Positions 4,131-18,240 of a DNA stretch of 21,690 bases are shown piece by piece. The DNA comes from a virus. How positions within the stretch are numbered: the first letter of the stretch is position 1; each line of letters opens with the position of its first letter. The DNA lies in IMG/VR virus record IMGVR_UViG_3300023179_000575, positions 1 to 21,690 of that record, one strand, 5' to 3'. The notes under the pieces were generated by a model. That model made no database searches and was not told where the DNA came from. It was given only the letters and a program-made list of their open reading frames with translations. Position numbers and translations under genes: made by a program.

Positions 4131-4754
4131 TTGAAAATAGCCTTATTCCTCAATCACCCTCAGTGCAGTGTTCAATCTATCAATGCAGTAATTAGCGCAT
4201 TGGCAGATTATTCCTTCAAAATTTTTACAAAGCATAAGGTAGAAGATCATTTTTTTAATGATGTTGACATGGTTTGTTTTCCTGGGGGTATTGGACAAGC
4301 TGATTCATTTGATTCTATTATGAGGAATCATTTTCAGCCTATTAAAGATTTTGTTAAGAAAGGAAAACCATACTTAGGGATTTGTATGGGTGCTTATTGG
4401 GCCGATCAATATTATTTTGATATCTTAAAAGAAACAAGAGTATTACAATATATCAAACAGCCAAATGCTTGCACAAAAAGGCCGCATGCCAAATCAATTT
4501 GTTTTAATTGGCAAGGATATCGTAGTGAGATGTTTTTTTATGATGGATGCACATTTAAAGGTGGTGAATTTAGAACAGTAGCTGATTATGGTATGGCAGA
4601 CTTACCAATGGCAATCAGGCAGGATAACATAGGATTAATTGGTTGTCATCCTGAGGCTGAAGAATTTTGGTATGATATGTATTCTTATACTAAAAATAGA
4701 TACATCTCAAATGCAACATTGTTAAGCCAATTTGTAGAAGATCTACTTAGCTAA
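4131..4754 (+). CDS. Class I glutamine-amidotransferase-like protein (BPL_N type)
   Basis: Class I amidotransferase-like fold: KIALFLN forms the first strand, VCFPGGIGQADSF (residues 48-60) the GG loop, GICMGAYWAD (83-92) the nucleophile elbow with Cys85, and GLIGCHPEAEEF (168-179) supplies His173 and Glu175. The triad Cys-His-Glu is thus present, as in the DJ-1/GATase1-like family related to the N-terminal domain of some biotin-ligase-like proteins. The partner and acceptor are not visible. The start must be TTG 4131: it abuts the upstream stop, and the next ATG would remove the first strand. It is much the largest gene of the plus block and overlaps the opposing GIY-YIG gene by 12 bases. 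Confidence 0.75.
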   Translation: MKIALFLNHPQCSVQSINAVISALADYSFKIFTKHKVEDHFFNDVDMVCFPGGIGQADSFDSIMRNHFQPIKDFVKKGKPYLGICMGAYWADQYYFDILKETRVLQYIKQPNACTKRPHAKSICFNWQGYRSEMFFYDGCTFKGGEFRTVADYGMADLPMAIRQDNIGLIGCHPEAEEFWYDMYSYTKNRYISNATLLSQFVEDLLS

Positions 4755-5147
4755 TTTATTTAAATGGCTTCTATTTACTCTGACCATAATCCAGGTATTA
4801 TACCACTTACTTGAATCCTCTAATACATTATTGAGAAATTGTTCTTTTGCTTCTAAGTAATTTGTTACACCCTTAGATAAACAAAGATGAATGATTTCTC
4901 TCTTGAAATGCTCTTTGCCAATCTTTTCAATATCAGCTTTCAGTTCATCAGAGCTCGACCAATATTCTTTCCAATCACTCTCAACTTTATACCTAACCCT
5001 TTTCTTATTTACTTGCTTACGCTTTGGCGTCCAAAATAGCTTTTTTCCAATGTATTTCTTATTATTAAGAAGATTAGTTATAATATAAACAAATCCGACA
5101 TAATTACCTGGCTCAGTAAATTCTTGATCCTTGTAAAACCATGTCAT
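4743..5147 (-). CDS. GIY-YIG family nuclease
   Basis: GIY-YIG signature variant: GFVY at residues 18-21 and YIG at 32-34, followed by basic KRKQVNKKRVRYK, SDWKEYWSSS (57-66), a possible catalytic Glu99 in YLEAKEQF and Asn117 in WYNTW. The 134 aa length matches a single nuclease domain with no DNA-binding tail. Such proteins in T4-like phages are usually called homing or Seg-like endonucleases, but similar small ones may be repair or host-DNA nucleases. ATGA overlap with the zinc-ribbon gene. It is the last gene of the leftward metabolic block, and its end overlaps the opposing gene. Confidence 0.85.
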   Translation of the reverse strand: MTWFYKDQEFTEPGNYVGFVYIITNLLNNKKYIGKKLFWTPKRKQVNKKRVRYKVESDWKEYWSSSDELKADIEKIGKEHFKREIIHLCLSKGVTNYLEAKEQFLNNVLEDSSKWYNTWIMVRVNRSHLNKLAK

Positions 5148-5701: not shown

Positions 5702-6044
5702 GTTTCTTTCTTTCTGTCATATCAAGGAATAAAATCTCAATGTCTGCGTGTTCACCAAAAGCCTTGTGAAACTTTTTTAATGAATCTTGGAAGTAAAGAG
5801 AGCTTGGATTATTACGACCAAAATATACATCATTAATTAGAATGTCTTTATATTCTTGCGAATCTTCTGTCAACGGAGCCCATTTGTTGAGTGGACATGT
5901 ATTAAGTGGAATTACAGCTTTCAACTTAATTACACATCCACATTCAGAACACATCTCAATACCGCCCATTGATTCTACATGTTTATCACATGAGCGGCAA
6001 ATCTCTAATCTTTTTGATATATAGTTCAAGCTACCTTGCCCCAT
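5691..6044 (-). CDS. Cys-rich zinc-binding phage protein, 117 aa
   Basis: Start placed at ATG 6044, with GGGAAG just upstream, inside the 3' end of nrdB (19-base overlap); a GTG at 6056 is the alternative. The N-terminal half carries a Cys pattern: CRSC (about residues 16-19), CSECGC (about 32-37) and CPLNKW (about 50-55). The order CxxC...CxxCGC...CPxxKW matches small zinc proteins I have seen in aquatic phages. The C-terminal half is acidic with SLYFQDSLKKFHKAF and IEILFLDMTERKKR. Unknown function; the position between nrdB and dCMP deaminase suggests co-expression in nucleotide metabolism. Confidence 0.75.
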   Translation of the reverse strand: MGQGSLNYISKRLEICRSCDKHVESMGGIEMCSECGCVIKLKAVIPLNTCPLNKWAPLTEDSQEYKDILINDVYFGRNNPSSLYFQDSLKKFHKAFGEHADIEILFLDMTERKKRAK

Positions 6045-7018
6045 ACATCTTCCCACGATCCACTCAAAGCACCTTTAGCATAGTCAGTTGCTCTGTTTTC
6101 AAAAAAATTCGTATGAATTGGCGCATTTATTTGTTCTTCCACCCAAGGCAAAGGATTTTTCTTAACTTTCATGATTCCTTTAAGACCCATACTGATAAGG
6201 CGACGATCAGCAATATAGCGGATATACTGTTTAACGTCACGAGCGTCCAGGTCAGCCACACGTACCATGCCAAATGCCAGGTCAATAAACTTATCTTCCA
6301 AATCAACCATCTTAGTTGCAATGGTATAAATTTTAGATTTAAGATTGTCATTCCAAATTTCTCTATTTTCTTCTATATAGGTTCTGAATAACTTAATCAT
6401 ACTTTCAGCATGCATTGTTTCATCGACAATTGACCAGGTTACAATTTGCCCCATGCCCCTCATCTTACCGTGGCGTGGAAAATTAAGTAGCATAATAAAT
6501 GATGAAAATAATTGCATACCCTCGGTGAATGCACTAAATGCGGCAATGTGTTCAGCCGTAGATTCTTTAGCGCTATTCCTAGAACTTAAGTCTAGCAAGT
6601 AATCATGCTTTTCTCTCATTTCGGCATATTCTAAAAATTGATTATAAGTTGTTTCTGGCATACCCAATGATTCAATCAAATGTGAATAGGCAGCAATATG
6701 CAATGCTTCTCTTGCAGCAAATCCAGCTAACATCATTCTAACCTCTGGCTGTGGAAAGTATGGTAGGTAATTCTTCACATAACCACCAGCAACATCAATA
6801 TCTCCTTGTGTAAAGAATCTGAAGATGTGTGTTAGAAACTTTTGTTCATCCTCTGTTAATTTATTTTTCCAATCCTTAACATCCTCAAGCATTGGAACTT
6901 CTGTATGTAACCAATGTGCTTGTTCATGCTTTAACCACGCCTCATACGCCCAAGGATAGTTAAATGGTTTGTAGTAGCTTCTGTCTTCTAGTAAGTTAGT
7001 TTTTGTTTTTTTAATCAT
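6026..7018 (-). CDS. nrdB: Ribonucleotide reductase class I beta subunit
   Basis: Small subunit holding the diiron/tyrosyl radical centre that drives NDP reduction by NrdA. By alignment to E. coli R2, the metal ligands are Asp73 (QGD), Glu104 and His107 (REALH), Glu166 (FTEGM), Glu200 and His203 (DETMH), and the radical tyrosine is Tyr111 at H+4. All are kept, so it is not the metal-free Ie type. 330 aa is near the short end of the family. ATG 7018 overlaps the upstream stop by 8 bases (ATGATTAA). It is separated from nrdA by four genes, unlike the adjacent arrangement in many phages. Confidence 0.95.
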   Translation of the reverse strand: MIKKTKTNLLEDRSYYKPFNYPWAYEAWLKHEQAHWLHTEVPMLEDVKDWKNKLTEDEQKFLTHIFRFFTQGDIDVAGGYVKNYLPYFPQPEVRMMLAGFAAREALHIAAYSHLIESLGMPETTYNQFLEYAEMREKHDYLLDLSSRNSAKESTAEHIAAFSAFTEGMQLFSSFIMLLNFPRHGKMRGMGQIVTWSIVDETMHAESMIKLFRTYIEENREIWNDNLKSKIYTIATKMVDLEDKFIDLAFGMVRVADLDARDVKQYIRYIADRRLISMGLKGIMKVKKNPLPWVEEQINAPIHTNFFENRATDYAKGALSGSWEDVWGKVA

Positions 7019-7559
7019 TTGTTATTGTTCCTGGAACTATGTCCACAACCATGTGGATTCTTTCTTGTAGTGATAAGTTAATTACGTGATGGGGTTGTTG
7101 ATTATTGATCTCAATTACTTGACCTTCAGCCATGTTAATTGTTTTTTCGCCACATTTAAAATAGACAAAAGGATTAGTTATGATCGGCGCGTGTATTCTA
7201 TGTGTTTTTTCGAGATAATCTCCTCCATCTACATGAAGAGGAATATTGCTTGCCGGTAATAGCTTTGTTAATATAATTTTAAAAATACTACCATAATTAT
7301 AAAACTTTGTCAACCCAGATAACAAATCTGATGCTATATTTGTTATATCTGTGTAAAGAGGTTCATAAATTTCCTCTTTACACACATCCCAAGGTACCCA
7401 CTTTACCTTTATTGTCCTAGTGTTCATATGAACGGGGAATTGTTCTCCACGTTCTTTTTCGGCATCCCACCATGTATTAGGAATGTTTAATACGTAATTC
7501 TTCAATCTAGTATGATCAAAGCCAATACCTATATCCAAAAAACCATCTGGTTTAATCAT
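7011..7559 (-). CDS. AspH-like 2-oxoglutarate/Fe(II) oxygenase
   Basis: Resembles the aspartyl/asparaginyl beta-hydroxylase fold. Residues about 105-175 carry PLHVDGGDYL (His109, Asp111), RIHAPIITNPFVYF (Arg121), GQVIEINNQQPHHVIN (His157/His158) and ERIHMVVDIV (Arg167 for the 2-oxoglutarate carboxylate). The facial triad HxD...H is complete. Family members hydroxylate protein side chains or small molecules; the substrate here is unknown. The first 100 residues (FPVHMNTRTIKVKWVPWDVC) are a less familiar extension. ATG 7559 lies in an ATGATTAA overlap with the 32-residue ORF. Confidence 0.8.
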   Translation of the reverse strand: MIKPDGFLDIGIGFDHTRLKNYVLNIPNTWWDAEKERGEQFPVHMNTRTIKVKWVPWDVCKEEIYEPLYTDITNIASDLLSGLTKFYNYGSIFKIILTKLLPASNIPLHVDGGDYLEKTHRIHAPIITNPFVYFKCGEKTINMAEGQVIEINNQQPHHVINLSLQERIHMVVDIVPGTITND

Positions 7560-7650
7560 TTGATATAAACTTTAAAAATTGTTTTTCCTTTAATACGCCT
7601 GTATGTCTTTTTACTTCGCCATCTTCATTAAGTAGAATTATCTTGCTCAT
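7552..7650 (-). CDS. 32-residue ORF between glycosyltransferase and oxygenase
   Basis: Encodes a protein starting MSKIILLNEDGEVKRHTG and ending KQFLKFISND. It fills the only gap between the GT9-like gene and the AspH-like gene, starts within an ATGA overlap and ends within an ATGATTAA overlap, so it fits the coupling pattern of this block exactly. No ribosome binding site is visible, in line with reinitiation. It looks like a beta hairpin plus a short helix. No family recognised. Confidence 0.55.
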   Translation of the reverse strand: MSKIILLNEDGEVKRHTGVLKEKQFLKFISND

Positions 7651-8546
7651 GCTTTTGAACGAATATGTTGAATTAGGTTTTCACAAATGGTGTCAATTTC
7701 TTCTTTAGTAAAATCCATCAAACCATCATTGCATGTTTCACTAATGTACATATCAAATTCGGCTAGCCGGTAGGGCATATAAGATCTTTCATCACTTTTT
7801 TCTATATTTGTAAACCATTCTGGATAGCCACAATTGATTGTAGTTGTACCGCCAAATATAACCATTCCAGGTTTATCAAATGCGTAAGCAAGATGCTGCC
7901 CCGCACTATCACAACCAAAATAATAATCACATTGTGATGCAATTATTGCCCATTCTCTAATTCCAACTCCTCTTATTGGCAAGACCATGTTGCGGTCTAT
8001 AAAAGGAATTTCCCTATCATCAAACAATGCAATTTGTAATCCCGCATTTATTAGCGTTTGAATAGTTTTAATTGTAAGTTCTCTTGAAAAAGATCTTACT
8101 GTGTTATCTAATACTTCTTTATCAGTAAATGTTGCAGTGCTTCCGAAGGGTTGAAATAAGACAGTCTTTTTTCCAGACTTCTTAATTACATCATTAAATC
8201 TATTTTTCTCTGACTTTGTTAGATATATTCTAGGTTTATCTACTTGACCTTCTATGTTATTGATATCTTCGTTGAATGCTTGAGCTAAGCTAATTTTGTT
8301 GTTGATATAATTGCTGTTGAAGTATGGCTCTGGTTTAATAATCTTACTATCTCTAATTCGATCAAATAACCCTTTAGTATTATTATCAAACACTCTTGGT
8401 GCTAACTTCTTATTACCCCAAAACAAAGGTGTCCAAAAGTATGTAATGATAGTTGTATCTGGATTATTATCAACGAATTCTTCAAGAGCTGGAATGGCAC
8501 AAATCTGACGGCCTGCACCACCATCTATTAATAACGTAGTTTTCAT
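7647..8546 (-). CDS. GT9 (heptosyltransferase-like) glycosyltransferase
   Basis: GT-B fold layout. The N-terminal domain begins MKTTLLIDGGAGRQICAIPALEE, the G-rich first loop plus alpha1. The C-terminal sugar-nucleotide domain has VLFQPFGSTATF, NAGLQIALFDD, DYYFGCDSAGQHLAYAF and KPGMVIFGGT, the pattern seen in family 9 ADP-heptose:LPS transferases (D...G.DSG..HLA.A...P...IFG.T). The start ATG 8546 follows the previous stop by one base; an in-frame upstream ATG at 8579 is rejected because it overlaps the oxygenase. Length 299 aa. The donor sugar and acceptor are unknown: host LPS, a virion protein, or something hydroxylated by the neighbouring oxygenases are all possible. Confidence 0.8.
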   Translation of the reverse strand: MKTTLLIDGGAGRQICAIPALEEFVDNNPDTTIITYFWTPLFWGNKKLAPRVFDNNTKGLFDRIRDSKIIKPEPYFNSNYINNKISLAQAFNEDINNIEGQVDKPRIYLTKSEKNRFNDVIKKSGKKTVLFQPFGSTATFTDKEVLDNTVRSFSRELTIKTIQTLINAGLQIALFDDREIPFIDRNMVLPIRGVGIREWAIIASQCDYYFGCDSAGQHLAYAFDKPGMVIFGGTTTINCGYPEWFTNIEKSDERSYMPYRLAEFDMYISETCNDGLMDFTKEEIDTICENLIQHIRSKA

Positions 8547-8547
8547 A

Positions 8548-9135
8548 TTATTTAAATTTTGGACCGTTAACCCATCCAACGAGGCTATATCTAGTTCCTA
8601 GAGTAACAGGTGTGACTTCATGTAGTGTAAAGCTTGGAAAGAAATTAATGGTACCTTGTTTCTTTGATGGTTTTGTGGGTGCAGGCCCTCCTATATGAAG
8701 AAGTAATTCACCACCTTCATAACTATTCTCGTTTGATAACTGAACACTAAAACTTAACTTCCTTGAATTAGCGGTATCAAATCCATAATCACAATGTTTA
8801 TCATACATGCCACCTTCACCGTCATTATCCTGATAACCAGTAAATTGCAATTGCTCTAATGCTATCAGATCGAACTGAAAGAATTGCTTGTTAATATTTG
8901 TAATTAAATCAGTACATTTTCTATACAACCAATCACATTCTGGATTTAAGTAATCTAACCAACTTATATCAGACCTTCTCAATTTATCATCATAGGGATT
9001 TTCACCAAATGTATTCGCTCTAATCTTAGGAAATACTTCAGTGCCTAGCCTAATAATTTCTTTACATTCATCTTCACTAAATGCATTTTCAATATATGCC
9101 CAAGATTCATTTTTCCAACCTGTTAAAAACCACAT
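8548..9135 (-). CDS. PKHD-type 2-oxoglutarate/Fe(II) oxygenase
   Basis: Prolyl-4-hydroxylase-like double-stranded beta helix. The iron ligands are His114 and Asp116 (KHCDYG) and His172 (LHEVTP), and Arg182 (GTRYSLVGWV) binds 2-oxoglutarate. SFSVQLSN and YEGGELLLH between them are the usual P4Hc core strands, and NFFPSFTLHEVTPV is the typical third-ligand strand. 195 aa is a normal single-domain length. Common in T4-like aquatic phages as a PiuC-like hydroxylase; the target is unknown. A good AGGAG lies eight bases before ATG 9135, and it follows nrdA by 15 bases. Confidence 0.88.
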   Translation of the reverse strand: MWFLTGWKNESWAYIENAFSEDECKEIIRLGTEVFPKIRANTFGENPYDDKLRRSDISWLDYLNPECDWLYRKCTDLITNINKQFFQFDLIALEQLQFTGYQDNDGEGGMYDKHCDYGFDTANSRKLSFSVQLSNENSYEGGELLLHIGGPAPTKPSKKQGTINFFPSFTLHEVTPVTLGTRYSLVGWVNGPKFK

Positions 9136-9150
9136 AATATATTCTCCTAA

Positions 9151-10950
9151 TTATCCCTCACAAGCTAAGCAAACTTCCTCGCTTTGTGCTAATTGTTTTA
9201 AGTCTATTTCTTCGATAACTTGACGTTCTATTTTCTTAGAGACTTTATCAGCTTTCGAAATCTTCTCGCTGCGGCAGTAGTAAAGCGTTTTGAGTCCTTG
9301 CTTCCATGCCAGGAAGTGTACTGCATGAATATACTTGATATTCGAATCGGGTCTAAAAAATAAATTAACGCTCTGTGCTTGGTCGATATAATGCTGGCGA
9401 TCGGCTGCATGCTGTACAATCCACCTTTGGTCAATTTCCATTGACGTCTTAAATACATCTTTGGTCCATTCGTCTAGGAATTCAAGATGTTGAACGCTGC
9501 CATCGTTGGCGATAATAGACGACCAGATTTCGTTATAATCCATCTTAGAGTCGGCATCACATTTCTCCATAATAATTTTGTCTAACCATTTATTCTTGTT
9601 TAACCACGCACCGCTGAGAGTGTCTTGCCTATATGCATTTGCTCGGTATGGTTCGATTGAGGGAGATGTATTGCCCATAATAATTGAAGAACTGGCATTA
9701 GGAGCAATAGCCATAACATGACTGAACCTACGACCCGTACCTTTGGCATCGGGAGCTTCGCCCCTTTCTTTACCCAATTCAATATTTGCATGATCTAATC
9801 CTTCACGGATGTGTTTGAATATTTGCTTGTTTTTACCAACAGCCATTGCCGATTCCCATGGCAAGTTGATTTTCTGCAAATAAGCATGGAATCCAAGTGC
9901 GCCAATACCAATCGAACGTTCCCGGAAAGCCGAATATGTTGCCCTGCCAATTGATTGTGGAGCATTATCAATAAAATATTGGAGAACATTATCAAGCATT
10001 TCAGCTATGTCACGAAGAAAAACCTTATCATTTTTCCAATCATCATAGTATTCCAAATTAACAGAGGATAAACAACATACGGCTGTACGTTCCTTGTCTG
10101 TTGGCAATACAATTTCAGAACACAAATTACTTTGACGAATCTTTAATCCAAGTTTCTTTTGAAACTCTGGCATTGTCCTATTACTTGTATCAATAAAATG
10201 AAGATAGGGTTCACCAGTTTGCATTCTAAGTTCTAAGATACGTTGCCATAGTCCTCTGGATGAAATCTTTTCACGGATTTCTCCATTATGCGGGTCTTTT
10301 AGCTCCCACGTATCGTCTGCTTTAGGATCAATCATACACTTTTCTATAATGTGCATAAAGTCATCAGTGATATTAATTCCATGATGCAAGTTCAGTGCTC
10401 GCATATTGGGATCACCAGTAGGCTTTCGCATATCTAAGAAGAGGAGAACATCCGGATGACTGATGTCAAGATAAGCAGCATAGCTACCGCGACGAGTACG
10501 ACCCTGTCTGTAAGCGAGAGAAGATGCATCGTAAGTCCGAAGATGAGGCATAACCCCAACAGACTTATCATCAGCACTACGAATACCAATTCCGATTCCA
10601 ATTCCACCTCCTAGCATGGATAACCAGTTTACTTCTGATAATGTATTGACTAATCCTTCTGCACTATCGTCTAGAAAGGGCAAAAAGCACGATATAGGCA
10701 GACCACGCTTCGAACGACCAAAAGATAAGATAGGTGTGCTATAGGAAAGCCAGTGTTTGCTAGAGTATTCATATAGGCGTTGTGCGTGGTCTTGATTGCT
10801 TCCGAAAGCGGCTGATACATATGCAAATCTTTCTTGTGGAGATTTTTCGCTTTCTAACATATAAGATTCTTGTAATCTTTTTATACCCAATTCATCGAAT
10901 AATTTGTCTCGAGAATAGTCTACCACAATACCGTGAATTGTATTTTGCAT
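9151..10950 (-). CDS. nrdA: Ribonucleotide reductase class I alpha subunit, short form
   Basis: Catalytic subunit reducing NDPs to dNDPs with NrdB. Active-site residues can be placed by alignment to E. coli R1: Cys88 (PISCFL), Asn275-Cys277-Glu279 (SNLCSE), Cys292 (AVCCLSS), Tyr557-Tyr558 (LYYC) and the C-terminal thiol pair Cys594/Cys597 (VCLACEG). The 599 aa protein is much shorter than E. coli or T4 NrdA (about 750-760). It begins near the 10-stranded barrel region and has no room for the N-terminal ATP-cone, so overall activity control by dATP is probably lost. ATG 10950 has AAGG upstream. Confidence 0.95.
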   Translation of the reverse strand: MQNTIHGIVVDYSRDKLFDELGIKRLQESYMLESEKSPQERFAYVSAAFGSNQDHAQRLYEYSSKHWLSYSTPILSFGRSKRGLPISCFLPFLDDSAEGLVNTLSEVNWLSMLGGGIGIGIGIRSADDKSVGVMPHLRTYDASSLAYRQGRTRRGSYAAYLDISHPDVLLFLDMRKPTGDPNMRALNLHHGINITDDFMHIIEKCMIDPKADDTWELKDPHNGEIREKISSRGLWQRILELRMQTGEPYLHFIDTSNRTMPEFQKKLGLKIRQSNLCSEIVLPTDKERTAVCCLSSVNLEYYDDWKNDKVFLRDIAEMLDNVLQYFIDNAPQSIGRATYSAFRERSIGIGALGFHAYLQKINLPWESAMAVGKNKQIFKHIREGLDHANIELGKERGEAPDAKGTGRRFSHVMAIAPNASSSIIMGNTSPSIEPYRANAYRQDTLSGAWLNKNKWLDKIIMEKCDADSKMDYNEIWSSIIANDGSVQHLEFLDEWTKDVFKTSMEIDQRWIVQHAADRQHYIDQAQSVNLFFRPDSNIKYIHAVHFLAWKQGLKTLYYCRSEKISKADKVSKKIERQVIEEIDLKQLAQSEEVCLACEG

Positions 10951-10979: not shown

Positions 10980-11240
10980 TCACAAACCTAAAATATTTCT
11001 TTTAGGAGCCTCGAGTTTTATAGTATCATTTTTACATTTTTCAGCCAATGCAATTGCACTAATTTTAACTCCATTATCACCTTGTTTTGCTATTTCAGCA
11101 ACCGCTGCAAAGCAAGCTGTTTGTGATACTGTGGCGTCTCGGCTAATTGCTTTAGCTGTATCATAATACAGCTGATCATTTGATGTCGTTGCACATCCTC
11201 CCAAAATTAGGCATAACAATATTAACATTATCTTTTTCAT
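10980..11240 (-). CDS. Small lipoprotein, third in lysis-like group
   Basis: Lipoprotein signal: MKKIMLILLCLILGGC with the lipobox LGGC and Cys16 as the lipidated residue, followed by ATTSND. The mature part (about 70 aa) has a helical Ala-rich stretch (TACFAAVAEIAKQGDNGVKI, then AIALAEKC) with two further Cys. The segment with AEIA..GD resembles small lipoproteins I have seen in other aquatic phages. It shares ATGA with the Rz1-like gene, suggesting a joint role at the outer membrane in lysis, but this is inference. Confidence 0.75.
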   Translation of the reverse strand: MKKIMLILLCLILGGCATTSNDQLYYDTAKAISRDATVSQTACFAAVAEIAKQGDNGVKISAIALAEKCKNDTIKLEAPKRNILGL

Positions 11241-11512
11241 TTTTTATTGTATATTTCTTTTTGCTTTTTATACCAATCATTCCAACCATCGTTTTTAACA
11301 CTGCATTCATAATATAGAGTATAATTGGTAACTACAGCTTTTAGCAACTCGGTTATAGCTGTTTGATTATTCTCTATTTGTTTTAAATCTGGACATTTTT
11401 CCTGAAGGGCAGCAGGTGCTTCTGGCCATTGTGGTTTAGCAGGTAAAAACTTTGTAACCAAACCGCAACTAGAAAGAATTAATGAAAGGAGAGCAATATA
11501 TATGATTTTCAT
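11237..11512 (-). CDS. Rz1-like outer-membrane spanin lipoprotein
   Basis: Lipobox LSSC with Cys16 after MKIIYIALLSLILSSC. The mature protein is Pro-rich near the start (PAKPQWPEAPAALQEKCPDL), then has a helical segment and WNDWYKKQKEIYNKK at the end. The order WP..P..L...CPDL...V..NY..Y.EC...W..WY..Q resembles phage Rz1-type o-spanins. It would sit in the outer membrane and bind the inner-membrane partner encoded just upstream. ATGA overlaps on both sides. Named from pattern memory, so a profile search should confirm it. Confidence 0.75.
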   Translation of the reverse strand: MKIIYIALLSLILSSCGLVTKFLPAKPQWPEAPAALQEKCPDLKQIENNQTAITELLKAVVTNYTLYYECSVKNDGWNDWYKKQKEIYNKK

Positions 11513-12042
11513 TTCTTCTCTCCTAAACCCTTTGCAGCTTCATTATGCATGTTTAGGATAACGGCTGGAACAGGGCATTCCTTTAAACTACGCTTTAGCT
11601 CTTCAATCTCATCTTCTAGCTTTTTCTTTTGTTCGGGTGATAAATCTTTGGTTATTTCTTTAACTACTTCTGGTCCTTGAATTATTTTATCAACAAACTT
11701 GGTAATAATTTCACCCTTTTCACGAACGATCTTAGTTTTTTCTACGATCTTTTCTTGGATTTCAGTAGTTACTTGCTTGCCTTTGCTTTCAGCTTCTGCA
11801 ACCTGTTGTTCTAATTCCTTGACTCTATTTTCCCATTTTTGTTCATTGCTTGCTGCACCAAGGAACCAAATTGAAATTACTGTCAAAGCAATACCAACAC
11901 CTTGGACAGCAAATCTATTTGCAGTAACTAATGGAATTTTAGAAAGGAACCAGGCAGCTGCAATTGCTGAGACTCCTAGAGCTAGTGTGAATGCCCAAAA
12001 CCAGGTTGGGATCCAACTAAAGAGCATGGTTAGTTGCCACAT
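11509..12042 (-). CDS. i-spanin (Rz)-like membrane protein with coiled coil
   Basis: Two hydrophobic segments (about residues 13-33 and 44-63), then a long charged coiled coil (about 65-160: KELEQQVAEAESKGKQV, VEKTKIVREKGEIITKFVDK, SPEQKKKLEDEIEELK), ending ECPVPAVILNMHNEAAKGL. This matches the layout of phage i-spanins, where the periplasmic coil reaches the outer-membrane Rz1 partner; the CPVP...HN.AA ending is also seen in such proteins. The second membrane segment is unusual, since Rz normally has one. It is followed by the Rz1-like gene with an ATGA overlap. Confidence 0.75.
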   Translation of the reverse strand: MWQLTMLFSWIPTWFWAFTLALGVSAIAAAWFLSKIPLVTANRFAVQGVGIALTVISIWFLGAASNEQKWENRVKELEQQVAEAESKGKQVTTEIQEKIVEKTKIVREKGEIITKFVDKIIQGPEVVKEITKDLSPEQKKKLEDEIEELKRSLKECPVPAVILNMHNEAAKGLGEKK

Positions 12043-14087: not shown

Positions 14088-14591
14088 TTACTTTTTCTTT
14101 GGAGTTGCTTTTTTATGTGCAGACTTAGCTGGTGCTTTAGCTGGTGCTTTATCTGCAGGCTTTTCTGCTGGCTTTGCTTCAACCTTAGGTGTAATAAGAG
14201 CAATATACTCATCGCTCTTCATAAATTCAACCTTAATAGTATCTAGATCGTGTGGTGTAGATACCCAATATTCTAGACCAGCTTGATCTGGTTCACGCTT
14301 TAAAACTTCACGGTAAAGATTAGCTACAGCCTCTTTGCGCATCTTGGCTTTGAATTCATCGCTCTTCATAAATTCTTCACGAATCACATCGATCGAATGT
14401 TCTGTAGAAACCCAATATTCTAGACCTCCCTGATCTGGTTCTCTACCAAGTACTTCTTGATAAAGTTTAGTAACTTCTACAATACGTTTTTTGCTCATAT
14501 TTTCACCTTCTGTAGATAATTGTTGTGGTAACTGTGGTTTAACTGGAATAGATTTTTCTAATCCAAATAATTTTTTCAAAAAACTAAGCAT
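14088..14591 (-). CDS. Protein with two DUF4214 repeats and basic tail
   Basis: Two tandem copies of about 45 residues: VTKLYQEVLGREPDQGGLEYW...FMKSDEF and VANLYREVLKREPDQAGLEYW...FMKSDEY, the DUF4214 pattern seen in many surface or secreted proteins and in phage structural regions. They are followed by a low-complexity basic Ala/Pro/Lys tail (APAKAPAKSAHKKATPKKK), and preceded by a short leader with LFGLEKSIPVKPQLPQQ. 167 aa. ATG 14591 overlaps the previous stop by 8 bases. Probably a minor virion or lysis-time protein; function unknown. Confidence 0.8.
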   Translation of the reverse strand: MLSFLKKLFGLEKSIPVKPQLPQQLSTEGENMSKKRIVEVTKLYQEVLGREPDQGGLEYWVSTEHSIDVIREEFMKSDEFKAKMRKEAVANLYREVLKREPDQAGLEYWVSTPHDLDTIKVEFMKSDEYIALITPKVEAKPAEKPADKAPAKAPAKSAHKKATPKKK

Positions 14592-15540: not shown

Positions 15541-15984
15541 TTAACTATTATATAAACTGATAACGTGCCAATTGGTTGTTGCTGTGTTATATATTAAGGT
15601 TGCTGTATGCCCAACATTTGAGAATACTACATTACCACTATTTGCAATATTTGAATTAATCCAATAGTCTCCACCATATACAGTCATGGTGACTACTTTT
15701 AATTGATTTTCTACGCCTCGGGGAATAAAGATTCTACCAGGACCCCCTGTAGAATTTAAATTTGTAACCGTAGCTGTTAACGCTACTGATTCACCCGCAG
15801 ATGTAATAGTCGCAGTTGAAGATCCAAGTTGTACCTTGGATTTCATATTAACATTTGCTGCAGATGAATTTAAATTTTCGATTGAAATTTTTCTGCTGTT
15901 TACACCCTGAACAATGTAAAGCAAATCTGCCCCCGTGGCCGGAGTAGTAGCAGCATTTAGTTCTGAAAGTTTTGCGTCAGCCAT
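15541..15984 (-). CDS. Fibre-related protein, 147 aa, shared N-terminal domain
   Basis: Residues 1-40 (MADAKLSELNAATTPATGAD, then LLYIVQGVNSRKISIENL) are the same module as at the start of the 165 aa and 582 aa proteins, a typical adaptor-like N-terminus of aquatic phage tail fibre genes. The rest is Thr/Ser/Val/Asn-rich beta structure (STATITSAGESVALTATVTN, then YGGDYWIN and WHVISLYNS), fitting a small trimeric fibre or collar. TAATG overlap with the 165 aa gene. Confidence 0.78.
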   Translation of the reverse strand: MADAKLSELNAATTPATGADLLYIVQGVNSRKISIENLNSSAANVNMKSKVQLGSSTATITSAGESVALTATVTNLNSTGGPGRIFIPRGVENQLKVVTMTVYGGDYWINSNIANSGNVVFSNVGHTATLIYNTATTNWHVISLYNS

Positions 15985-16481
15985 TAGATTTCAATTGTAG
16001 TATAAAATAATGCAATCGATACTGAATTATCGCTTGCGGATAAGTTAGTTACATTGACGTAAATTGTTCCATTAGGATTAATATCACTATTAAAACCAGT
16101 TACAGCTGGAGCAATGTAAGCATTTACATTAGAAACCGGATTGTAGTAATCGAGCACTACACCAGCATTTGCATTAGGAGTTGTAGCTGCTGCTCTTGCA
16201 ATATCATTTGCCCTCATTCTGCTATCTGTGTAGATTCTAATCCGACTAGCAACATTAGATCCTGCACGATACAATGAATAAATGTTTGCGCCTGATATTT
16301 GAATATTAGCATTAGCACCTACAGCAATATTAGCTGTACTTGCAATCTTTACAAATCTTGTTTTTGCTAATAAATTAGCCGATGTAATCTTTCTGCTGTT
16401 GCCACTCGATACAATGTAAAGTAGGTCGTTGGCCCCAGCAGAATTCACTTCAATTAAATCAGATACTCTTGAATCGGCCAT
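15984..16481 (-). CDS. Fibre-related protein, 165 aa, shared N-terminal domain
   Basis: Residues 1-41 (MADSRVSDLIEVNSAGANDL, then LYIVSSGNSRKITSANL) align with the first 40 residues of the flanking fibre genes. The remaining part is beta-rich with many Asn, Ala and Ile (ANIAVGANANIQISGANIYS, then SVSIALFYTTIEI). No S74 chaperone is attached. Probably a short fibre or accessory tip. It lies 10 bases after the large fibre gene and overlaps the next gene by TAATG. Confidence 0.78.
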   Translation of the reverse strand: MADSRVSDLIEVNSAGANDLLYIVSSGNSRKITSANLLAKTRFVKIASTANIAVGANANIQISGANIYSLYRAGSNVASRIRIYTDSRMRANDIARAAATTPNANAGVVLDYYNPVSNVNAYIAPAVTGFNSDINPNGTIYVNVTNLSASDNSVSIALFYTTIEI

Positions 16482-16491
16482 ATTTTATCTC

Positions 16492-18240
16492 TTATTGGTT
16501 CTTTAGTTGATTAACTTCGTCACTAAGTGTCTTTACGGCATTTACAAGAGCCGCAACTATTTGGTTTACATCAATACCCAAATACCCACGCCTATCTGCA
16601 ATAATGGGTGACATATCTACATAATTATTTGCTGCATTGTAAACATCCTGAGCAATAAAACCTATCATCCTTGAACTGAAACCTGCATCTTCATTGACTG
16701 TAGAATTTCTCATCTCAAATGATTTTACATCTAATGATTTAACAAAATCTAAACCAACAGTACTTGGTGTAACATTGCGTTTTAAGTTTACATCAGAAGG
16801 CACTGCACCAATTGTTCCATCCCCACGATATACCTGTGCAGATGTACCAGATGGATCTTCTAACAATGATGCATTAAAGTGAACTCCATCTAAACCAAGT
16901 CCAACCGATCCAGAAGCTCCTGTGCCAGGCCAATAATATCTAAACCCACCTGCTGCAACATCGTTATAGAAATAGGCACCAACCGATCCAGTATGGTTAC
17001 CATATCTAAATGAATAGATGTTAGCTGACATACTATAAATATTAGCAGAAAAACCACCTGGTGTTAATGCTGCGCTTCCACCATCGTTTTTAAGATAAAC
17101 CGCATTACCTTGCTTTGCAGATAAAAGAGTATCTTGATCTAAAATGTATCCTGATGCAGAAATCTTAGCTTTATTGACGCCAGCTGAATCAAATCCCCAA
17201 TTTTGGTTGGCAGGAAAACCTACTGAATTGTTCCAATAGAATGAAGTGCCGCTATAACGATTATAAAATGTTACAGCGTTATCAGTAAATGCTGTATTAG
17301 TGAGGTTTGCCCAACGAAGTGTTAGATTACCTACCTGTTGTGATGCACCTAATGCAGAAGCTACAACATAAGTAGCATTTGCTGTCTTAAATGTTGGAAT
17401 GGTATTTTGACCAGCTGCAGCATCAGCTACAGGCCACCCATCAACAACGATGTAGGCGTAATCCGATCCCTTTCTCGCGAAAGCATAATAGCCATCTCTT
17501 GCCAATGCGTTTTCAACCCAATAAAATGAAATGCCAGCAAATGTATTATAAAAGTTTAATGCATTGCTGGTTAATGTACTACTAGAAATATTTGCCCAAT
17601 TTAATGTAATATTTCCAACTGTTTGACCACCACTGCCTACATTATTACCAGATTTAATGTATGTGACGTTAGCAGTCTTAAATGTTGGTATGGTATTTTG
17701 GCCGGCAGCACTATCAGCTACTGGATAACCATCACCTGTAATAAAGGCTCTATCATTATTTTTTCTATTAAATGCCCAGTAACCATCTCTTCCCAACGAA
17801 TTTTCTAGCCAGTATATAGAAAGTCCAGCAAATTTATCGTGGAAGTTAATTGTATTACTTGTAACTGTAAATCCGTTAACATTTGCTGTAGTTAACGTAA
17901 CATTACCAATAAACTGAGAATTTAGAGCTTTAGCTAGCTGAACATTTGATACTGTACCAGAGGAAACACCAGCGATAGAAGTAAATCCACCACCGCTTTG
18001 TGGTTCCCATGTTACAGTTACAGTATTCCATGTTAATACTTGACCGTTTGCTGGGGTAAGTCCTGATACATCATAAAGGTTGGCAAGACTAGCGGCACCG
18101 ACTCTTGCATCTATTCTTGCGTTAGAAACCACATTGGCAACAGTAGCTTTCTTACTTGTAGAACTTTGAACCAAGTAAAGAATGTCTGAACTGTTTACCG
18201 ATGTAGCTTCAGTAAGTTCTGATACCTTAATATCTGCCAT
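16492..18240 (-). CDS. Tail fibre with internal repeats and S74 chaperone
   Basis: N-terminal module MADIKVSELTEATSVNSSDI (residues 1-40), a linker NGQVLTWNTVTVTWEPQSGG (65-84), then three related repeats of about 80 residues (about 112-195, 209-294, 305-384). The C-terminal peptidase S74 / endosialidase intramolecular chaperone starts at Ser482 (SDVNLKRNV), with LDVKSFEMR, IGFIAQDV and a final coiled coil (LVNAVKTLSDEVNQLK). In this family the chaperone trimerises the fibre and cuts itself off just before the conserved Ser. Likely the host-recognition fibre; 582 aa. Late expression from upstream TATAAATA promoters is expected. Confidence 0.9.
   Translation of the reverse strand: MADIKVSELTEATSVNSSDILYLVQSSTSKKATVANVVSNARIDARVGAASLANLYDVSGLTPANGQVLTWNTVTVTWEPQSGGGFTSIAGVSSGTVSNVQLAKALNSQFIGNVTLTTANVNGFTVTSNTINFHDKFAGLSIYWLENSLGRDGYWAFNRKNNDRAFITGDGYPVADSAAGQNTIPTFKTANVTYIKSGNNVGSGGQTVGNITLNWANISSSTLTSNALNFYNTFAGISFYWVENALARDGYYAFARKGSDYAYIVVDGWPVADAAAGQNTIPTFKTANATYVVASALGASQQVGNLTLRWANLTNTAFTDNAVTFYNRYSGTSFYWNNSVGFPANQNWGFDSAGVNKAKISASGYILDQDTLLSAKQGNAVYLKNDGGSAALTPGGFSANIYSMSANIYSFRYGNHTGSVGAYFYNDVAAGGFRYYWPGTGASGSVGLGLDGVHFNASLLEDPSGTSAQVYRGDGTIGAVPSDVNLKRNVTPSTVGLDFVKSLDVKSFEMRNSTVNEDAGFSSRMIGFIAQDVYNAANNYVDMSPIIADRRGYLGIDVNQIVAALVNAVKTLSDEVNQLKNQ
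17089..17907 (-). repeat. Three tandem repeats inside the tail fibre gene
   Basis: Protein-level repeats at about 17656-17907, 17359-17616 and 17089-17328. Repeats 1 and 2 are close: FAG[LI]S[IF]YW.EN.L.RDGY.AF.RK, then GQNTIPTFKTANVTY against TANATY. Repeat 3 keeps NAVTFYNRYSGTSFYWNN and GNAVYLKN but has lost the RDGY and IPTFKT parts. At DNA level GTCTTAAATGTTGG occurs in both repeats 1 and 2. Confidence 0.85.

Follow-up and report, generated by a model that had tools for sequence, protein, structure and literature searches.

In the Skp1 and collagen pathways, a prolyl or lysyl hydroxylase is followed by a glycosyltransferase that acts on the new hydroxyl. Phages encode very many 2-oxoglutarate (2OG) oxygenases and glycosyltransferases, the targets of which are mostly unassigned (PMC9602691, PMC3037559). 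In phage T4, the gap between nrdA and nrdB, which encode the two subunits of ribonucleotide reductase (RNR), carries the homing endonuclease gene mobE (PMC2988022, PMC3653736). Here, we analyzed the whole of a 21,690-base virus fragment (IMG/VR record IMGVR_UViG_3300023179_000575; the window) in which this gap holds four open reading frames (ORFs). The minus-strand order is nrdA, 2OG-A, GT, a 32-codon ORF, 2OG-B, and nrdB, where 2OG-A and 2OG-B are predicted oxygenases and GT is a predicted glycosyltransferase (Table 1). The window encodes a primase akin to the T4 gp61-type enzyme found in T4-like phages; in the three cyanophages inspected, nrdA and nrdB come after this primase gene without any insert. 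As with mobE, the identical intergenic site receives inserts in T4-like phages; unlike mobE, the cargo in the relatives studied here consists mainly of metabolic and modification genes, and no homing-endonuclease Pfam matches were obtained among the site genes tested.

The initial annotation described the four ORFs as one coupled unit that might hydroxylate and then glycosylate a common target. Recalculation returned the same four ORFs, coordinates, overlaps, and active-site motifs, including a complete HxD...H and Arg site in both oxygenases. The four-gene unit itself did not survive comparison with relatives, because a deletion in a thioredoxin gene left the 32-codon ORF as a scar, 2OG-B was inserted separately, and the parts occur split. 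What stands of the hydroxylase-glycosyltransferase cassette is the pair of 2OG-A and GT, which is exchanged as a block.

Allelic exchange of the cassette and a tail fibre

The three closest relatives (L009, L010, and L012) share the order nrdA, 2OG-A, GT, 66-aa ORF, 83-aa thioredoxin, and nrdB, and thus have the 66-aa ORF and thioredoxin in place of the 32-codon ORF and 2OG-B. When compared in 150-bp segments, L009 and L012 were mostly 94 to 100% identical, with nrdA itself mosaic (75 to 99%), but identity dropped to 62 to 84% between the nrdA stop and the GT stop, with sharp borders. Protein identities between the two followed the same pattern (nrdB, 99.7%; thioredoxin, 97.6%; 2OG-A, 69%; GT, 73%). 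L010 carries the L009-type cassette allele. The ratio of nonsynonymous to synonymous differences (pN/pS) was 0.17 to 0.27 in 2OG-A and GT, indicating purifying selection and maintenance of both genes. From these alignments, it is well supported that 2OG-A and GT form a two-gene cassette swapped as one block. We found no description of such a cassette in literature searches that left out most subscription journals.

To place this divergence in context, we compared the 22 window genes for which the L009 contig and the L012 contig each have a homologue. Synonymous divergence (pS) between L009 and L012 was 0.03 to 0.35 in 18 of these genes and saturated (0.59 to 0.75) in the remaining 4: 2OG-A, GT, a tail-fibre gene whose product ends in an S74 intramolecular chaperone, and the small gene adjoining it. 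For each of the four, L009 is more similar to the window than to L012; for example, the small protein of the window is 92.1% identical to that of L009 and 80.6% to that of L012, which are 81.2% identical to each other. The cassette pair and the fibre pair lie ~6.8 kb apart, with normal backbone between them. Two scans for the fibre recovered it, besides the window, only in the L009 contig, the L012 contig, and contig 044527_000445, and every fibre-bearing contig found (047551, 046777, 044527_000445, and the window) goes with the cassette. Contig 044527_000445 and L010 derive from one sample, and the contig, judging by its coordinates, probably ends ~11 bp short of the L010 start; its L009-type fibre (94.4%) matches the L009-type cassette of L010. 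Among 48 related records, a full-length fibre was present only in the two with the cassette. The cassette alleles change in step with the fibre, making the fibre a candidate acceptor. We treat this as a lead from sequence comparison, of value because exchange with one specific tail-fibre gene names a candidate substrate.

Other insertions between nrdA and nrdB

In L009, L010, and L012, the 66-aa ORF starts with MSKIILL, and the thioredoxin contains WCGPC and ends in GEVKRHTGVLKEKEFLKFIAND. The 32-codon ORF of the window reads MSKIILL followed by NEDGEVKRHTGVLKEKQFLKFISND. Its codons 1 to 7 match the start of the 66-aa ORF (20/21 bases identical) and its final 25 codons match the end of the thioredoxin (69/78 bases identical), for a net loss of 340 bp relative to the arrangement in these relatives. 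The CxxC redox motif of the thioredoxin (WCGPC) was lost. Since the reading frame and both overlaps are intact after the deletion, coupling to the downstream genes was preserved. By this alignment, the 32-codon ORF is a real remnant, a deletion scar and no independent gene. A microprotein or regulator was ruled out, since the ORF consists of the two ends of genes that are neighbours in relatives; deletion scars can look like microproteins in compact phage operons.

2OG-B is missing from the nrdA-nrdB site in L009, L010, and L012. It matched PF05118 at 36.8 bits (cut-off, 22.6), and its metal and 2OG residues are complete (H109-x-D111...H157, R167). The gene is flanked by an exact 12-bp repeat, CAAATGATTAAA, which is the thioredoxin/nrdB junction sequence and occurs in 2 copies in total in the window; L009 and L012 show the same junction without an insert. 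No viral relative of 2OG-B was returned by a single-sequence search, and an alignment search found one (L029, 36% identity), which sits beside other genes. A sequence search of the PDB with 2OG-B gave zero credible matches. Its flanks and distribution identify 2OG-B as an independent insertion beside nrdB; neither it nor the scar belongs to the proposed 2OG-A/GT pathway.

These events fall at a site of frequent insertion. Across 80 loci retrieved by nrdB similarity, the nrdA-nrdB interval measured from 7 bases (L037 and L040) to 4,571 bases (L060), and some 40 gene families were found inside it among relatives (L015 to L094). The cargo includes staphylococcal-nuclease-like, SET, NifU/IscA-type Fe-S assembly, class II aldolase, non-specific endonuclease, Rieske oxygenase, PstS-like, and Mpo1-like proteins and several 2OG oxygenases. 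The most frequent resident is thioredoxin (cluster C0; 38 entries, with a few contigs counted twice), mostly located immediately before nrdB. Judged by these gene orders, the nrdA-nrdB gap is a cargo hot spot in this T4-like phage group. In the window, GT overlaps the 32-codon ORF by 4 bases, the 32-codon ORF overlaps 2OG-B by 8 bases, and 2OG-B overlaps nrdB by 8 bases; gaps of 1 base and 15 bases separate 2OG-A from GT and nrdA from 2OG-A, respectively. In relatives, inserts at this site are generally coupled tightly to their neighbours, so such 4- and 8-base overlaps alone are no mark of joint function.

A GATase/BPL_N-like protein is encoded elsewhere in the window (4131 to 4754, plus strand). 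In ~20 relatives, such proteins (cluster C2) are encoded inside the nrdA-nrdB interval, and the gene thus appears mobile between sites.

Predicted reactions of the cassette enzymes

2OG-A matched PF13640 (2OG-FeII_Oxy_3) at 55 bits (cut-off, 27), and its site residues (H114-x-D116...H172, R182) were unchanged in 8 homologues. The AlphaFold2 model (pLDDT 78) has a double-stranded beta-helix fold, with best PDB matches to PHD2 (Z, 18.3), a Pseudomonas prolyl 4-hydroxylase (P4H; 18.2), chlorovirus vCPH (16.8), and the PKHD enzyme PiuC (16.8). Thus, 2OG-A shares its fold (Z, 16.5 to 18.3), the HxD...H motif, and the Arg with prolyl hydroxylases (PHD2, vCPH, and the Pseudomonas P4H, which acts on EF-Tu) and with PKHD enzymes (PiuC/YbiX). 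It differs from these enzymes in being phage encoded and paired with a glycosyltransferase, and it is 18 to 24% identical to them. The fold by itself suggests that 2OG-A may hydroxylate peptidyl proline.

Consistent with the initial annotation, GT is predicted to be a GT9-like enzyme, as supported by its fold and by its match to phrog_8954, a PHROG entry without assigned function. This assignment holds despite a weak, partial match to the Pfam GT9 family (PF01075; E, 0.0015; 18.3 bits, below the cut-off of 22). GT9 enzymes matched the GT model (pLDDT 95.6) over its full length, with VIA Z scores of 22.9 for 3tov, 20.4 for TibC, 20.2 for WaaF, and 18.8 for WaaC; below these came the GT9-like chain of the plant NDH-PSI supercomplex (17.7 to 17.8) and then the next fold class (11.8). 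A PDB sequence search with the GT family gave zero matches, and single-sequence patterns, whose reach is limited to close relatives, found no close bacterial homologues in the genome collection.

GT therefore shares with the GT9 heptosyltransferases WaaC and WaaF and with TibC/BAHT, which transfer heptose to protein, a full-chain GT-B fold (Z, 18 to 23) and a C-terminal DSxGxxH motif, at ~11 to 13% identity. The motif is kept in 90/91 phrog_8954 members, and its D213 aligns by hhalign to the donor-site residue D261 of WaaC. Unlike TibC/BAHT, GT has no extra N-terminal domain; residue 1 of the model aligns to TibC residue 97. The active site also departs from these enzymes at the base. In WaaC, D13 is the catalytic base, and D13A costs 4,688-fold activity (PMC5713226); D110 is its equivalent in TibC (PMC4358343). 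At this position, phrog_8954 members have Arg13 (90/91) or Lys (one member), in a register set by an ungapped N-terminal match of G12/P19/A20/L21 to WaaC, since hhalign covered the C-terminal part only. E73, D147, and R151 are invariant in the family and may provide a substitute base and donor contacts.

A NodU-type carbamoyltransferase lies immediately downstream of GT in 59/91 family loci (e.g., L173:8929-10644), and this conserved pair is often close to tail fibres. In 54/91 loci, GT has a tail-type gene cluster no more than 6 genes away, although 2 of the 7 clusters so counted had no PHROG match. Relatives of GT are also accompanied by sugar-biosynthesis genes (epimerase, cupin, and heptose kinase). 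In P-SSM2, genes for a heptose-7-P kinase and a heptose-1-phosphate adenylyltransferase-like protein and a 2OG oxygenase gene neighbour GT between tail fibre genes. From this gene context, the donor would probably be an ADP-heptose-like sugar. The tail-fibre sugar islands of cyanophages (P-SSM2 T4-GC 302-308, S-CAM3, and S-SSM7) thus have the GT family in common with the window (32 to 35% identity) near tail fibres, and those of P-SSM2 and S-SSM7 also hold a 2OG oxygenase. They differ in that a NodU-like carbamoyltransferase gene and heptose genes come after GT there, whereas in the window it stands in the RNR operon with the oxygenase directly upstream. Among RNR-site records, adenylyltransferase-like genes occur solely after the dCMP deaminase in L028 and L015; their scores are below the family cut-offs and lend the ADP-heptose assignment weak support.

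Heptose-1-phosphate adenylyltransferase-like genes after a dCMP deaminase are located at L028:5795-6286 and L180:1474-1920. The one in L028 is followed immediately by a 2OG-A homologue (6387 to 6989).

Pairing of PF13640 oxygenases with GT extends beyond this locus. In 49 GT-bearing records, 11/21 such oxygenases lie within 2 kb of GT, compared to 1.5 expected (p = 4e-8), and the enrichment persists without the RNR-site clade (8/17; p = 5e-6). A different PF13640 oxygenase stands directly 5' of GT in L020 and L097, suggesting that the pairing recurs.

As a separate observation, the record of L118 (G025) has four PF13640 oxygenases inside 6 kb of its single phrog_8954 GT.

Competing explanations and neighbouring genes

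The explanation that best accounts for the whole joins the history of the hot spot to hydroxylation followed by glycosylation, with the S74 fibre as the most likely target; we hold it tentatively, at close to an even call. As the sequence shows, the phage lost most of its thioredoxin by the ~340-bp deletion and separately gained the AspH-like 2OG-B. According to the proposal, 2OG-A would hydroxylate a side chain in one of the phage's own proteins, with the S74 tail fibre as the likeliest substrate, and GT would then add an activated sugar, probably ADP-linked and heptose-like, onto the same protein, perhaps onto the new hydroxyl. The decorated fibre could change receptor binding or protect the virion. 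We infer this chemistry and the order of its steps. Taking fold, genomic context, and covariation together, virion-protein modification is the simplest reading. The likeness to the Skp1 and collagen pathways lies in the succession of hydroxylase and glycosyltransferase; those pathways are eukaryotic and use unrelated glycosyltransferase families, and for the phage both the order and the acceptor are proposed. A more specific version, in which a phage carries out two-step peptidyl hydroxylation and glycosylation of its own fibre with a rewired GT9-fold enzyme (Arg for the base Asp), and in which hydroxylase, GT, and fibre are swapped as a matched set ~7 kb apart, is doubtful as a complete statement. 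If true, host-range genes would be tied to post-translational modification, and the reaction catalysed by the large phrog_8954 family, with its unusual active site, would become easier to define.

Several observations weigh against fibre modification by the pair. The parts that the initial annotation expected to be linked are found apart: L015 has 2OG-A without GT, L017 and L020 have GT without 2OG-A, L028 has the two ~5 kb apart, and GT of L016 is located downstream of nrdB. L016 also has no full-length S74-type fibre. The co-exchange rests on about four closely related genomes, and the second allele type is represented by one contig (3300046777_002561), for which a chimeric assembly is possible. 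Fibres are often exchanged on their own, so the match between fibre and cassette may be coincidence. Two confounders affect the enrichment of oxygenases near GT: accessory genes cluster around tail fibres, and several of the matches share a record. Replacement of the catalytic-base Asp by Arg makes the standard heptosyltransferase reaction uncertain. Finally, no carbamoyltransferase lies beside GT in the window, and PF02543 is absent from 14 related RNR-site records, which are fragments.

The main rival places the target on the host surface: GT would convert the serotype or exclude superinfection by adding a sugar to host lipopolysaccharide (LPS) or another surface glycan, and 2OG-A would tailor the sugar, the lipid, or a host protein. 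GT9 heptosyltransferases classically build the LPS core and are, besides TibC, the nearest folds of GT, whose relatives sit among sugar-biosynthesis genes. Covariation fits this rival almost as well as it fits fibre modification, since a fibre must match an altered receptor. However, the closest folds to 2OG-A are peptidyl prolyl hydroxylases and include no sugar or lipid oxygenases, the pair has no accompanying acyltransferase, flippase, or membrane gene, and slow surface remodelling would presumably profit a lytic T4-like phage little. We consider a host-surface target possible but on the unlikely side. Somewhat more doubtful is that there is no joint pathway, with unrelated accessory genes piled up at a permissive, coupled site and 2OG-A and GT moving together through adjacency while acting on different substrates. 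The ~40 unrelated families at the site, the generic coupling there, the single occurrences of 2OG-A and GT, and the many oxygenases without assigned roles in T4-like cyanophages (PMC9602691, PMC3037559) favour this reading; against it stand the precise exchange of a two-gene block with borders at gene ends, the matching allele history of the fibre pair, and the repeated PF13640-GT pairing suggested by L020 and L097.

Two further explanations turn on the RNR operon and on metabolism. The genes stand between nrdA and nrdB and not far from those for dCMP deaminase and ThyX, which recalls DNA or nucleotide modification, where a base is first hydroxylated and then receives a sugar (base J, the TET-GT phage systems). 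Neither oxygenase matched Tet_JBP, the fold neighbours of 2OG-A are prolyl hydroxylases and PKHD enzymes, and the PDB matches of GT are GT9 enzymes. PF00303 (thymidylate synthase/dCMP-hydroxymethylase) is absent from 13 related records, one of them 166 kb long, and unrelated cargo occupies the same site in relatives. DNA modification is thus unlikely, with only a slight chance of being correct, and the preference of the initial annotation for a target on protein or the cell surface rather than DNA is supported. A metabolic role, in which drawing down 2OG would influence nitrogen signalling in the host, has been proposed for the 2OG oxygenases of cyanophages (PMC3037559). Here it would leave both the GT pairing and the fibre covariation unexplained, and we regard it as highly improbable.

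Table 1. Coordinates and supporting matches of the features discussed (positions in the window)
Feature	Position	Strand	Support
nrdB, right border of hot spot	6026-7018	-	PF00268 2.5e-75
CAAATGATTAAA, right copy of 12-bp direct repeat, at nrdB start	7010-7021	-	
2OG-B, aspartyl/asparaginyl-beta-hydroxylase-like oxygenase, 182 aa, adjoins nrdB	7011-7559	-	PF05118 (Asp_Arg_Hydrox) E 4.3e-9
CAAATGATTAAA, left copy of 12-bp direct repeat around 2OG-B	7551-7562	-	
32-codon ORF, deletion scar	7552-7650	-	Alignment to L009/L010/L012
GT, predicted GT9-fold glycosyltransferase, 299 aa, second cassette gene	7647-8546	-	phrog_8954 E 6e-60; fold
2OG-A, Fe(II)/2-oxoglutarate oxygenase, prolyl-hydroxylase/PKHD-type fold, 195 aa, first cassette gene	8548-9135	-	PF13640 E 1.4e-14; phrog_61 8.7e-33
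nrdA, left border of hot spot	9151-10950	-	PF02867 2e-102
Small protein adjoining tail fibre, N-terminal module similar to that of the fibre	15984-16481	-	Co-exchanged with fibre
Tail fibre ending in an S74 intramolecular chaperone, contains a repeated NTIPTF motif, candidate acceptor	16492-18240	-	PF13884 9e-10; phrog_1980 tail fiber

For GT, a 310-aa version with a TTG start was without support in the family alignment, and the ATG at 8546 was taken. Other genes of the window were noted in passing. A SegE-type GIY-YIG gene (4743 to 5147, minus strand; PF19835, 5e-38) lies near the dCMP deaminase and is kept by relatives at 80% identity. Between nrdA and thyX are two small lipoprotein-like genes (10980 to 11240 and 11237 to 11512, minus strand), which, together with a membrane-anchored coiled-coil-like protein (11509 to 12042, minus strand), are possibly spanin/holin-like. 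A small protein encoded at 14088 to 14591 (minus strand) contains tandem repeats of the kind LYxEVLxREPDQxGLEYWV.

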